From: Coriobacteriaceae bacterium EMTCatB1
GTDB taxonomy: Bacteria; Actinomycetota; Coriobacteriia; Anaerosomatales; Anaerosomataceae
Direction: 5' to 3'
Assembly: GCA_001950395.1 (NCBI GenBank)
Contig: BDLO01000001.1
Span: 124,001-188,000 of the forward strand
DNA length: 64,000 nt
Of the stretch, positions 57,904 to 64,000 are shown piece after piece. The notes under the pieces are model-generated. The model ran no database searches. It had not been told where the DNA came from and saw only the letters and a program-made list of their open reading frames with translations. The position numbers and the translations under genes are program-made. Every line of letters begins with the position of its first letter. Position 1 is the first letter of the stretch.

Positions 57904-58650
57904 GTGGCCCTGGAGGGCAACCTCAAGGACTTCTCGCTTGCCGACATGTTCCGCTTGCTGGGCGCAGGCAGGAAGACGGGCACCCTGTATCTGGAGAGGC
58001 CCGATGCTCAGGGCAAGGTGTGCTTCAAGAAGGGGCGCGTGTTCTTCGCTTCGTCGAACTGGCATCGGGAGTCGCTCGGGCGTCGTCTCGTGAAGGCAGG
58101 GGTCATCTCGGAGAAGCAGCTGCGCCAAGCGCTCGGCCTCCAGAAGATCCAGAAGAAGGAGAAGGCGGATCGGAGGCTCGGCCAGATCCTCGTAGACGAA
58201 GGGTACCTGGACGCGAAGGTTCTCGAGACCTTCATCCAGGACCAGATAAACGACACGCTCTTCGACTTGTTCCGCTGGGAAGAGGGGCAGCTTCGGTTCG
58301 AGCCTGACGAGACCTGCGACGAAGAGGACATCGGCATCTCGGTCTCCGTCGAGAACATCATCATGGAGGCGTCACGCCGCCTTGAGCTGTGGAGCAAGAT
58401 CCGCGAGAAGATCCCCAGCATGGACACCGAGTTCGTCATGGCGGCCGCCCCGGGTGACAAGTCCATGGAGATCCACCTGAAGCCGAAAGAGTGGATGCTC
58501 CTGTGCTACATGCACGGCGGGCGGTCCGTCAAAGAGCTCGTCGAGCTCACCGGATACGACGACTTCGAGGTGGCGAAGATCCTGTACGGGATGCACGCGG
58601 CCGGGCTCATCGAGCGCGCAGACGCCCAGCCCGACGGCTCCGGCGCATAG
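57904..58650 (+). CDS. DUF4388 (PATAN) domain protein with MshEN-like helical repeats
   Basis: LEGNLKDFSLADMFRLLGAGRKTGTLYLERPDAQGKVCFKKGRVFFAS; LGRRLVKAGVISEKQLRQALGLQ and RRLGQILVDEGYLDAKVLETFIQDQ. Confidence 0.85.
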   Translation: MALEGNLKDFSLADMFRLLGAGRKTGTLYLERPDAQGKVCFKKGRVFFASSNWHRESLGRRLVKAGVISEKQLRQALGLQKIQKKEKADRRLGQILVDEGYLDAKVLETFIQDQINDTLFDLFRWEEGQLRFEPDETCDEEDIGISVSVENIIMEASRRLELWSKIREKIPSMDTEFVMAAAPGDKSMEIHLKPKEWMLLCYMHGGRSVKELVELTGYDDFEVAKILYGMHAAGLIERADAQPDGSGA

Positions 58651-58662
58651 GAGCATGGCTCC

Positions 58663-60225
58663 ATGAACGAGTGGTCTGGCTCGAAAGACCTCACGTACGA
58701 GGAGTTCGTGCGATTCCGTGACTTCATCCACGCTGCCTCCGGCATCTACATGGAGGACACCAAGCAGGACTCGCTCCGCATATCGCTGGTGACGCGCGCG
58801 ACTCGTCTCGGCCTCTCGAGCTTCAGCGAGTACTTCGCGGTGCTCGAACGAGACGAGCACGAGCTCAACGAGCTGCTCAACCTCGTCACGATCAACGAGA
58901 CGAGCTTCTTCCGGTTCCCGCAGCAGTTCGAGGCGCTGCGTACGCGGGTCTTGCCGGAGATCATGGCCAACAAGCCGGACTCGAACCGCACGATCCGCAT
59001 CTGGTCGGCGGGCTGCTCTACCGGCGAGGAGCCGTACTCGATCGCCATGACCGTCATCGACGCCGGTATCCTCTCGCTCGGCTGGCGGGTGCAGATCCTG
59101 GGCACCGACGTGTCCACGAGAGCGCTGAACGTGGCGAAGAAGGGCGAGTATCCGAAGCGCTCGCTCCTGAACGTCCCGAGCGAGGTGCTGGCTCGGCACT
59201 TCGAGCCGGTTCCGGGCGGCTACGCGGTCGCGCCGCACGTACGCTCGCTGGTGGACTTCGGGTACCACAACCTCATCAAGGAACCGTATCCGCTCGCGCT
59301 CATGGGCAACTGGGACATCATCTTCTGCCGCAACGTCACCATCTACTTCAAGCTGGAGTCAACCAAGCGCGTGGTGTCGAACTTCTTCAACAGTCTGAAC
59401 GAGGGCGGCTACCTGTTCATCGGGCACTCCGAGACGCTTTCACAGATCAACGACCAGTTCGAGGCGGTCGAGGTGGGTGGCGTCTTCCTTTATCGGAAGC
59501 CCAAAACGCGTCGAGGGATCGGGATCGCCGCGAGGAAGCCCGCCGGCGCGCCGATGCCGCCGGCCGAGCCGCCCGCGCTCGGACAGCGGGAAGCGGCTGT
59601 CGGGCGCTCGAGCAGGACAACCGGCCGGAAGCCGGAGCGCGACGCGGAGCAGCACAGCGCGGCGCGCAGGCCGCGGCCAGCTCCACGGGCGTCCTCGAGC
59701 GAGGCGCAGGCTCCAGACCCGGTGCAGGCTGCGCGGGCCGCGCTCGAAGAGGGCAGGGTGGCCGAGGCCCTCGAGCTCGCTCAACGCATCATCGCTTCCG
59801 ACCCGAACAACGCCGACGGTCACCTCATCGTGGCGTACGTCCACGCAGACGCTGGCGACTATGCGGCAGCGCTCGAGTCTTGCCACCGAGCGCTCGCCAT
59901 CAACCCGCTGCTGCCCTCCGCGCGCTACATCCTCGGCATCATCTATCAGCGGCAGGGCGACGTCGTGCGCGCGGTGAGCGAGTTCAAGAAGACGGTCTAC
60001 ATCGACGACTCGTTCGCGCTCGCGCACTTCAACCTCGCCAACATCTACAAGAGCCAGCGGAAGTGGGACGCCGCTGCGAGAGAATACGAGAACGCCTTGC
60101 GGGCGCTTTACAAGAGCCCAGAGGGTGCGTGGACCGAGTTCCTGGGAGGGTTCAAGATCGACTTGCTCGCCAAGACGTGCGAGCGCAGTCTGCTAGAGTG
60201 TCGGAAGGCCATGGGCGTCTCGTGA
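58663..60225 (+). CDS. CheR-type protein methyltransferase with C-terminal TPR
   Basis: LNLVTINETSFFRFPQQFEALR, IWSAGCSTGEEPYSIAM, WDIIFCRNVTIYF; TPR ADGHLIVAYVHADAGDYAAALESCHRALAINP. Confidence 0.94.
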   Translation: MNEWSGSKDLTYEEFVRFRDFIHAASGIYMEDTKQDSLRISLVTRATRLGLSSFSEYFAVLERDEHELNELLNLVTINETSFFRFPQQFEALRTRVLPEIMANKPDSNRTIRIWSAGCSTGEEPYSIAMTVIDAGILSLGWRVQILGTDVSTRALNVAKKGEYPKRSLLNVPSEVLARHFEPVPGGYAVAPHVRSLVDFGYHNLIKEPYPLALMGNWDIIFCRNVTIYFKLESTKRVVSNFFNSLNEGGYLFIGHSETLSQINDQFEAVEVGGVFLYRKPKTRRGIGIAARKPAGAPMPPAEPPALGQREAAVGRSSRTTGRKPERDAEQHSAARRPRPAPRASSSEAQAPDPVQAARAALEEGRVAEALELAQRIIASDPNNADGHLIVAYVHADAGDYAAALESCHRALAINPLLPSARYILGIIYQRQGDVVRAVSEFKKTVYIDDSFALAHFNLANIYKSQRKWDAAAREYENALRALYKSPEGAWTEFLGGFKIDLLAKTCERSLLECRKAMGVS

Positions 60226-60296
60226 CGCCCACGCTGTAGAGCTGCCGCGTGCTGGCCGATACAAGGCGCAGGCGGAAGGCACGGAGGGAGATGCTG

Positions 60297-62536: not shown

Positions 62537-63124
62537 GTGCCACGGAAGAAGAAGACCGTAGAAGAGGAAAAGCCAGCGCAGGTCGTCACCGAGCCGGTCT
62601 TTGACGAGCCCGAGGCAGCCGTGCACGGCGACGTCTGTCACGTGCCGTGGGCGCACGGCGCCCGCGATGTGGATCGCGTGGTCGTGTTCTCGCTCGACGG
62701 GCAGCGGTATGCCCTGCCGATCGAGAGCGTCCAGGAGATCCAGCAAGTCGTGGAGTTCGTTCCCGTTCCCGATGCGCATCCAGCGCTGCTCGGCATGGTG
62801 GACGTGCGAGGCATCGTGACGCCGGCGGTCGACCTCGGTGTCCTTCTCGGCCTTTCTCGTCGCGCCATCCGTCTCGAGACACCGATGCTGCTGTTCTTGT
62901 GCGAAGGCCACCTCGTCGCCGCGGTCGTGGACGAGGTCGACGACGTGTTCGAAGTCCCGCCCGCCTCTCTGCAGGCGCCATCCGAGCTGTACTCGCTCAA
63001 AGACAAGATGATCGGCGTGTGCAAGATCGGCGACGAGCTGGTGATAGTGCTGGATCCGGACCGGCTCGTGCCGAGCAGCATATCTGGCAGCCAAGGAGAC
63101 GAGATCGGAAGGCCGAATCCGTGA
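62537..63124 (+). CDS. CheW-like protein
   Basis: VVVFSLDGQRYALPIESVQEIQQVVEFVPVPDAHPALLGMVDVRGIVTPAVDLGVLLG. Confidence 0.92.
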   Translation: MPRKKKTVEEEKPAQVVTEPVFDEPEAAVHGDVCHVPWAHGARDVDRVVVFSLDGQRYALPIESVQEIQQVVEFVPVPDAHPALLGMVDVRGIVTPAVDLGVLLGLSRRAIRLETPMLLFLCEGHLVAAVVDEVDDVFEVPPASLQAPSELYSLKDKMIGVCKIGDELVIVLDPDRLVPSSISGSQGDEIGRPNP

Positions 63125-63666
63125 TGCGCGCTCAGCAATACGACGACGCAGACGAGCAGATCCAGAAGATCTTGCGGGAACGCGCAGCGTCCCTCGCGCA
63201 GGCCGAGTCGGAGGAGCAGGCCGTCGAGACCCGCGGGCTGCTTCTGTTCCTGGTGGGCGACGAGACGTACGCCGTCGACGTCGAGCACGTCCGCGAGATC
63301 GTCAACGGGTTCACGGTGACGCGCATCCCGTGCGTCCCTTCTCACGTGCTGGGAGTGATCAACGTCAGAGGCGAGATCGTCTCGGTCGTCGACTTGGCAG
63401 CAGTGCTGGGCTCGGCTTCGTCGCGCACTCTCGAGCAAGAAGAATCGAGCGGCATCATCGTTAGGTTCGACGAGGTCACGGCGATGCTCGTCGTCGACGA
63501 GATCGGCGACATCATCGACGTGCCCACCGCCTCGATCGAGCCGCCGCTCTCGTCGCTCGACCGAGCGCACGCGGAGATGGTGTCTGGCAGCGTGTATCAG
63601 GACGGACGGTTGATAGCAATCGTGAACCTCGGACGTATTCTGCAACCGGTCGGAGAGTCGGCGTGA
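63124..63666 (+). CDS. CheW-like protein
   Basis: LLLFLVGDETYAVDVEHVREIVNGFTVTRIPCVPSHVLGVINVRGEIVSVVDLAAVLG. Confidence 0.94.
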   Translation: MRAQQYDDADEQIQKILRERAASLAQAESEEQAVETRGLLLFLVGDETYAVDVEHVREIVNGFTVTRIPCVPSHVLGVINVRGEIVSVVDLAAVLGSASSRTLEQEESSGIIVRFDEVTAMLVVDEIGDIIDVPTASIEPPLSSLDRAHAEMVSGSVYQDGRLIAIVNLGRILQPVGESA

Positions 63667-63691
63667 CGCCAGGGCGAAACGGGAGGACCGC

Positions 63692-64000
63692 ATGATCAAG
63701 AACCTGATCGAGAAGGTGCGCACGACCTTCCTGCTGAAGTACTCGCTCGTCAATTTCGCCCTAATCGCCGTGGTGAACACCATCCAGCTCGTGGTCGCGT
63801 GGATCGTGTTCAAGGACGTGCTCGTGACGAGCAAGAACCTCGTCACGCAGGCGGCCATCGTGGTCGGCACGTTCCTCGCGATGCTCGCGGTGTTCATCTA
63901 CCTCTACATCCAGATCGGCAAACGGTTCATGGCGCCGCTCGGGCTTGTGGCATCGAGCGTCAAGGCCGCGTGCGAGGGCGAGATAGGACACAAGGTCGAC
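63692..64000 (+). CDS. N-terminus of methyl-accepting chemotaxis/HAMP protein (truncated by window end)
   Basis: ATG at 63692; MIKNLIEKVRTTFLLKYSLVNFALIAVVNTIQLVVAWIVFKDVLVTSKNLVTQAAIVVGTFLAMLAVFIYLYIQIGKRFMAPLGLVASSVKAACEGEIGHKVD; two TMs then HAMP-like. Confidence 0.75.
   Translation, partial: MIKNLIEKVRTTFLLKYSLVNFALIAVVNTIQLVVAWIVFKDVLVTSKNLVTQAAIVVGTFLAMLAVFIYLYIQIGKRFMAPLGLVASSVKAACEGEIGHKVD

Follow-up and report, generated by a model that had tools for sequence, protein, structure and literature searches.

A catalytically dead PilB in a conserved chemosensory operon suggests a link between sensing and type IV pili in the flagella-free order Anaerosomatales

To our knowledge, not even in Pseudomonas and Myxococcus has it been settled how chemosensory signals reach the motor of type IV pili. 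The closest described systems differ in components. Pil-Chp of Pseudomonas aeruginosa controls type IV pili with CheA, receivers, CheWs and homologues of CheR and CheB (PMC12632253); it has two receivers (PilG and PilH), its CheA contains many phosphotransfer domains, and PilJ is thought to bind ligands. In the Pix/Tax phototaxis systems of Synechocystis, a chemosensory operon includes a PATAN protein that acts on type IV pili, and PATAN proteins fused to a receiver bind PilB1 (PMC7690835, PMC9090330). The Dif system of Myxococcus xanthus (MCP, CheW, CheA and CheY) controls exopolysaccharide and takes PilB, a real motor, as its input, with an ATPase-dead PilB also signalling to Dif (PMC5544727), and in Dif-like MCPs the periplasmic domain is almost absent (PMC2577667).

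The locus described here comes from a 1.84-Mb genome of the Anaerosomatales (Coriobacteriia), of which selected stretches were read. The window, as we call the whole 64,000-nucleotide stretch analysed, carries from position 57904 seven co-directional genes with overlapping or close boundaries, which a sequence-only reading had described and Pfam places where it put them (in order, DUF4388/PATAN; CheR and TPR; Response_reg; T2SSE and MshEN; CheW; CheW; HAMP and MCPsignal). Spacing runs from short overlaps up to ~70 nt. On the + strand the operon showed no terminator-like site, and scans for sigma-70-type promoters were uninformative. Features are as follows, with positions past 64000 given as window equivalents.

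57904..58650, + strand: PATAN (DUF4388) protein, 248 aa (PF14332, 2.8e-34)
58663..60225, + strand: CheR methyltransferase with C-terminal TPR repeats, 520 aa (PF01739, 2.3e-57; PF03705; several TPR models)
60297..60677, + strand: CheY, single-domain receiver (PF00072, 1.9e-31)
60674..62521, + strand: pseudo-PilB, 615 aa, PilB/GspE fold without the catalytic motifs (PF00437, 5e-56; PF05157)
61808..61843, + strand: degenerate Walker A of pseudo-PilB (APVASGASSTYY replaces GPTGSGKSTTLY)
62009..62029, + strand: degenerate Walker B of pseudo-PilB (AIDGIRS replaces LVGEIRD)
62207..62308, + strand: zinc tetracysteine region of pseudo-PilB (CPNC ... CPNC), retained
62537..63124, + strand: CheW-1, 195 aa (PF01584, 4.6e-29)
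63124..63666, + strand: CheW-2, about 180 aa (PF01584, 5.2e-33)
63692..64000, + strand, on to 64918 beyond the window: MCP, 408 aa (PF00672 and PF00015, 3.5e-43)
64951-67260: CheA-REC, directly past the window edge, after the MCP
67279-68328: CheB, after CheA-REC, with murI next

For PATAN, the start at 57904 given by the sequence-only reading is correct, since the counterpart of M/V-ALEGNL with which most orthologs open lies there (the longest ORF runs from 57814); the start of CheY was inferred from orthologs (longest ORF from 60249). The genes for CheY and pseudo-PilB overlap by 4 nt, and the likely ATG of cheW-2 overlaps the stop of cheW-1. The MCP is truncated at the window edge, and the expectation that CheA and CheB might follow it was borne out. 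The che set is thus complete and linked (MCP, CheW, CheA, CheY, CheR and CheB, all Pfam-positive). CheA has its Hpt histidine, and CheY retains its phosphorylation-site residues at 79-98% identity across the order. By N-terminal comparison, the MCP has two transmembrane helices with a short loop between them, then HAMP and signalling domains, and no extracellular ligand domain.

Compared with Dif, this operon has its own permanently dead PilB, a PATAN protein and CheR/CheB, and is without CheC/CheD. Unlike in Pix/Tax, PATAN and CheY are separate proteins, a pseudo-PilB is added and the receptor has no light-sensing domain; Pil-Chp, in turn, has neither PATAN nor pseudo-PilB.

A flagellar chemotaxis system was ruled out. 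FliP was absent from all 61 genomes searched (the source and 60 relatives), with flagellated control genomes positive, in keeping with the absence of flagellar genes noted around the operon. The type IV pilus genes on which the sequence-only reading depended do occur in the genome, in a full locus at 858-877 kb (pilB, pilT, pilC, pilD, pilM and one pilin), unlinked to the che operon.

The PilB-like protein retains the PilB/GspE architecture, with N1, N2 and C-terminal domains (Pfam, AF2 and Foldseek); its AF2 model has a pLDDT of 80.6, and its best Foldseek matches are PilB/PilF (PilB 5tsh, 5oiu and 5zfr). Its catalytic positions are gone, as the label ‘pseudo’ had anticipated. Alanine (Ala385, codon 61826) stands at the Walker A lysine and glycine (Gly449, codon 62018) at the catalytic glutamate of Walker B, with lysine and glutamate each kept in 0/35 orthologs; the Asp-box aspartate and both His-box histidines are likewise lost in all 35 scored. 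The same 35 keep all four zinc cysteines, and new conserved motifs, QDTDV and GKLVIATF, stand where the old ones were. The NCBIfam PilB model gives a score of 269 against a cut-off of 676. Judged from its residues, the protein is a genuine pseudo-ATPase whose catalysis has been lost throughout the order. Catalytic motif loss alone would also fit a functionless, decaying pilB duplicate carried in the che operon, but pseudo-PilB has a dN/dS of 0.08-0.21, the same range as for murI, cheA and cheB, and evolves under purifying selection, and its frame is open in every assembly except one fragmented one. These values and the order-wide conservation refute decay, to which we assign a negligible probability. 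A search of an open-access library turned up no description of a protein of this kind.

The operon is conserved throughout the order. Pseudo-PilB orthologs occur in 56/61 sampled relatives and are ~55-89% identical over their full length, against ~30-35% to true PilBs. The nine-gene order is identical in 36/36 inspected loci over the part that each contig covers, and at short range constraint is strongest on PATAN, CheY and MCP. Two near-complete, PilB-positive genomes (G037 and G040) are without pseudo-PilB and have zero CheW, showing loss of the operon as a unit; pili therefore do not need the operon, and the idea that every pilus motor requires pseudo-PilB is rejected. Five genomes (G044, G049, G051, G052 and G055, each at least 94% complete) have exactly three CheW domains, as expected from the operon, which thus appears to be their sole che system. 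The proposed co-occurrence of operon and pilB held in that all 56 genomes carrying pseudo-PilB have a real PilB and the sole genome without a PilB match (G059, with 2 CheW domains left) is also without pseudo-PilB, but with 60/61 genomes PilB-positive this says little on its own. These patterns are best explained by a complete chemosensory pathway passed on by vertical descent.

The PATAN protein had been compared with the response regulators of cyanobacterial phototaxis. Its PATAN domain was upheld, but there is no receiver (Pfam gives only DUF4388 and a weak MarR-like match, the latter in a winged-helix-like C-terminal part), so it is not a cyanobacterial-type PATAN response regulator, and the receiver here is the separate CheY. 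PATAN orthologs are 46-94% identical, and Foldseek with the PATAN model returned nothing significant. A helical insertion (residues 58-114) contains an MshE-type c-di-GMP motif (NCBIfam NF053729, 44.7 bits, cut-off 38), in which SLG takes the place of the first RLG and the spacer exceeds five residues. A profile comparison with the MshE N-domain 5htl gave an E value of 3.1e-6, with a motif deviating from the canonical two 24-residue RLG...Q units. PATAN may be a c-di-GMP binder. The c-di-GMP motif model that finds PATAN also finds all three housekeeping PilBs but not pseudo-PilB, which we rejected as a c-di-GMP receptor like its paralogs.

We propose, with a probability of roughly 55%, that the operon encodes a dedicated type IV pilus chemosensory pathway in which CheY, PATAN and the dead PilB together connect to the pilus machine. 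An MCP without an outside ligand domain, adapted by CheR and CheB, would drive CheA through two CheWs, and CheA would phosphorylate CheY; CheY, PATAN and pseudo-PilB would then meet the pilus machine. With the PilB fold and zinc site kept and ATP use lost, the most likely binding site of pseudo-PilB is the motor, either next to or inside the PilB ring or at PilC/PilM. There it could adjust how the real PilBs drive extension in response to CheY-P and, by way of PATAN, to c-di-GMP. Loss of ATP use alone does not place it there. The 12 GGDEF proteins of the source genome and the binding of PilB1 by PATAN-REC proteins in Synechocystis also speak for this pathway; the distance of the operon from the pil genes and the PilB-positive genomes that do without it speak against. 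We infer both the order of action (CheY, PATAN, pseudo-PilB) and the behavioural outcome; twitching may not be that outcome, since the cultivated members of the order have been described as piliated, non-motile rods (PMC9686372).

Two readings place pseudo-PilB elsewhere. It may be an input, a PilB frozen in the nucleotide-free signalling state that reports on the pilus machine to MCP-CheW-CheA, with pilus or polysaccharide production as the response. The M. xanthus PilB variant K327A, a Walker A mutant without ATPase activity, gives a gain-of-function, pilus-independent signal upstream of Dif (PMC5544727), and the lysine-to-alanine change in the window protein falls at that very position; the short-looped MCP with two transmembrane helices also resembles Dif-like MCPs from Geobacter, for which sensing by way of other proteins has been suggested (PMC2577667). 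However, the pseudo-PilB gene adjoins cheY and PATAN rather than the MCP, and Dif-like clusters, which rely on CheC/CheD, are not known to include a gene for PilB. We consider the input role unlikely, though worth keeping in view, and input and output roles could coexist. Less probable still is a pathway for polysaccharide, c-di-GMP or adhesion in which pseudo-PilB is a scaffold on a PilB fold that never meets a pilus. The unlinked pil genes, the cultivated members described as non-motile and the 12 GGDEF proteins would suit it; against it, the whole PilB architecture is conserved, N-terminal domain and zinc site included, cyanobacterial PATAN proteins bind pilus motors and the che-linked relatives in G293 and G062 are fully intact PilBs.

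Those relatives belong to che operons of a neighbouring class, in which PilBs are intact (G293, G062) or half-degraded (G304, G314, G239 and G316, where the Walker A lysine and the Walker B glutamate remain and the Asp and His boxes are lost), pointing to stepwise loss. The degenerate PilBs linked to che genes group in a single clade, separate from the housekeeping PilBs (100/100 support), but this clade rests on long branches. Across 248 genomes spread over the Actinomycetota, only G304 had a clear ortholog score outside the order; the other high-scoring matches were mostly ordinary PilBs, and a weak 138-residue match in Sphingomonas was discounted. Half-degraded sites, together with the conserved QDTDV and GKLVIATF, could also mean that pseudo-PilB binds and slowly turns over nucleotide at a changed site, as the modified motor of a specialised pilus and not a regulator. 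We regard this as very improbable, as every catalytic position is lost in 35/35 Anaerosomatales orthologs and no pilin or PilC gene lies alongside.

For the dedicated pilus pathway, we tentatively consider, at somewhat less than an even chance, a history in which a che operon captured a working PilB that lost catalysis stepwise and is now a permanent signalling subunit joining CheY and PATAN (and c-di-GMP) to the working motor. The half-degraded relatives show a path from motor to dead PilB, and a signalling role of PilB seems to have been split off from motor function and, throughout an entire order, given a gene of its own. If so, pseudo-PilB would be a pseudo-motor counterpart of pseudokinases, and its partners should mark contact points between array and motor. 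The operon also suggests a sensing system for widespread, mostly uncultured subsurface bacteria of Gram-positive type, one isolate of which has pili with insoluble iron and none with soluble iron (PMC9686372).

A further likeness is to MglA/MglB and SgmX, which set pilus polarity in Myxococcus with a Ras-like GTPase and roadblock proteins. The GTPase is absent from the Anaerosomatales operon, and no SgmX-type TPR effector was identified. In the G304 and G314 operons, a small GTPase lies between PATAN and CheR, and a Roadblock-PATAN-GTPase set lies inside the pil locus of the source genome.

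Seven genes, all on the + strand, occupy the window from 57904 to its end (6.1 kb). The sequence-only reading suggested that cheA and cheB might lie downstream of the MCP gene, and both are present just past the window, followed by murI:

57904-58650, +, PATAN protein
58663-60225, +, CheR with TPR repeats
about 60297-60677, +, CheY
60674-62521, +, PilB-like protein (pseudo-PilB)
62537-63124, +, first CheW
63124-63666, +, second CheW
from 63692, past the window edge to window-equivalent 64918, +, MCP
window-equivalent 64951-67260, CheA with C-terminal receiver
window-equivalent 67279-68328, CheB
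34 nt after cheB, murI

Gene boundaries overlap or nearly touch, with the widest gap (~70 nt) ahead of cheY, and a scan of the + strand found no terminator-like site across the operon. From its layout, the PATAN-to-CheB set reads as one operon, and the order PATAN-CheR-CheY-pseudoPilB-CheW-CheW-MCP-CheA-CheB is constant in 36 fetched loci whenever the contig extends far enough. The MCP lacks an ectodomain, only a short loop joining its two transmembrane helices, as in the ectodomain-poor Dif-like receptors (PMC2577667), so sensing is probably via a partner or the membrane. Divergent minus-strand neighbours (54497-57680) encode an ArsR-type regulator, DsrE-like and TusA proteins, a nitrate-reductase-gamma-like membrane protein and a CCG/4Fe-4S protein, likely a sulfur-transfer and electron-transfer cluster.

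Compared with the genome's three normal PilBs, pseudo-PilB has Ala385 for the Walker A lysine, His408 for the Asp-box aspartate and Gly449 for the Walker B glutamate; both His-box histidines are lost and all four zinc cysteines retained. The same catalytic losses and retained cysteines occur in 35/35 orthologs scored, with R, A, S or G at the Walker A lysine position; outside these, the ortholog in relative G051 agrees with the same losses, and in the G003 assembly the reading frame of the ortholog is broken. Judged by these residues, pseudo-PilB is catalytically dead. Substitute motifs are conserved among orthologs (PV.GG.S.TYYAL, YSVE, QDTDV.A.D and GKLVIATF), and the predicted structure is that of PilB (pLDDT 80.6), with PilB and PilF crystal structures as top matches. 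The single disordered linker (about residues 152-220, window about 61121-61342) bears in many orthologs a recurrent DFFE-like motif, [AS]xD[FL]F[ED], possibly a docking peptide. Selection maintains the protein: orthologs occur in 56 of the 61 relatives sampled from the order, and pairwise dN/dS against congeners and family members (0.08-0.21, approximate because dS is near 1) is comparable to that of murI, cheA and cheB.

The window's genome is one 1.84 Mb contig. Named relatives carrying the PilB-like family are nearly all Actinobacteria/Coriobacteriia MAGs, two of them labelled Anaerosomatales. The two cultivated members of this order (formerly OPB41) are described as small, non-motile rods of Gram-positive type that bear pili; one of them formed pili only on insoluble ferrihydrite (PMC9686372).

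A flagellar reading of the operon was checked, and FliP was found in none of the 61 genomes by a search that was positive for flagellated controls. Type IV pilus genes, on which the sequence-only proposal of pilus control depended, lie at 858-877 kb (two pilB, pilT, pilC, pilD, pilin and pilM), with a third pilB elsewhere. The expected co-occurrence with pilB held, in that every genome with pseudo-PilB has a normal PilB, but it is weak evidence because 60/61 genomes have PilB; the sole exception, G059 (90% complete), also lacks pseudo-PilB. The argument for a pilus link comes from the PilB-derived component, the lack of flagella and the PATAN precedent. In relatives G037 and G040 (96 and 99% complete), PilB is present and CheW entirely absent: the che pathway has disappeared as a block and pilus genes can be retained in its absence, which fits expectation for a regulator.

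Chemosensory control of pili is already known. In Synechocystis, PATAN-REC proteins bind PilB1 (PMC7690835, PMC9090330), and the Pseudomonas receiver PilG governs where PilB localises (PMC12632253). These precedents favour an output role, to which we assign a probability of roughly 0.55, in which CheY-P and PATAN would act through pseudo-PilB seated at the pilus motor. The strongest counter-precedent is the ATPase-dead PilB K327A of Myxococcus, which acts as a gain-of-function signal and does so upstream of the Dif pathway (PMC5544727), and the window copy carries the identical lysine-to-alanine change; an input role, in which pseudo-PilB would likewise signal upstream of the che pathway, is in our view the less likely of the two. 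In the open-access papers searched, we found no description of a dedicated pseudo-extension-ATPase fixed in a che operon.

The PATAN protein of the operon has no receiver domain. Its helical insertion (residues 58-114 of the product of 57904-58650) scores above the cut-off of an MshE-type c-di-GMP motif model, the PATAN profile retrieves N-domains of PilB as well as the 5htl structure of the MshE N-domain, and the insertion appears akin to the N-domain with which MshE/PilB bind c-di-GMP. The motif, the 5htl match and the 12 GGDEF proteins of the genome together make c-di-GMP binding by PATAN plausible; the motif is lost in pseudo-PilB and present in its three functional paralogs. Such kinship, if general, could help explain why PATAN proteins act on pilus motors.

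Thirty-six genomes of a neighbouring class were searched. Two, G304 and G314, have the order PATAN-GTPase-CheR-CheY-PilB-like-CheW-CheW-MCP-CheA, with a small GTPase gene between PATAN and CheR (L140:5303-5815, L143:7483-8013); G239 has a version without the GTPase, as does G316 as far as its short contig reaches. In the PilB-like proteins of these four, the Walker A lysine and the Walker B glutamate persist but the Asp and His boxes are gone. The che operon of G293 includes a fully intact PilB, and in G062 an intact PilB adjoins cheY. Pseudo-PilBs and half-degraded forms form one clade (100/100), with intact che-linked PilBs adjacent; because the tree has long branches and an arbitrary root, step-by-step degradation of a once-active PilB is the most economical interpretation, short of proof.

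The pil locus of the window's genome includes, between two pilB genes (G000:C1:871747-874980, L006), a Roadblock/LC7 protein, a 656-aa PATAN protein and a Ras-like small GTPase, resembling an MglA/MglB module with PATAN added; the arrangement recurs in G304. Elsewhere, a 555-aa protein joins a receiver to a complete PilT retraction ATPase (G000:C1:419680-421347, L025:6681-8348), a fusion through which phosphorylation might act directly on the retraction motor; close matches, mostly full length, occur in 58/61 relatives, including genomes without CheW. A second chemosensory locus (G000:C1:1764474-1771783, L022; CheR, MCP, CheW, CheY, CheB, CheA and CheD) has a second pilT (1777012) about 5 kb away and is apparently absent from several relatives that retain the window's operon.
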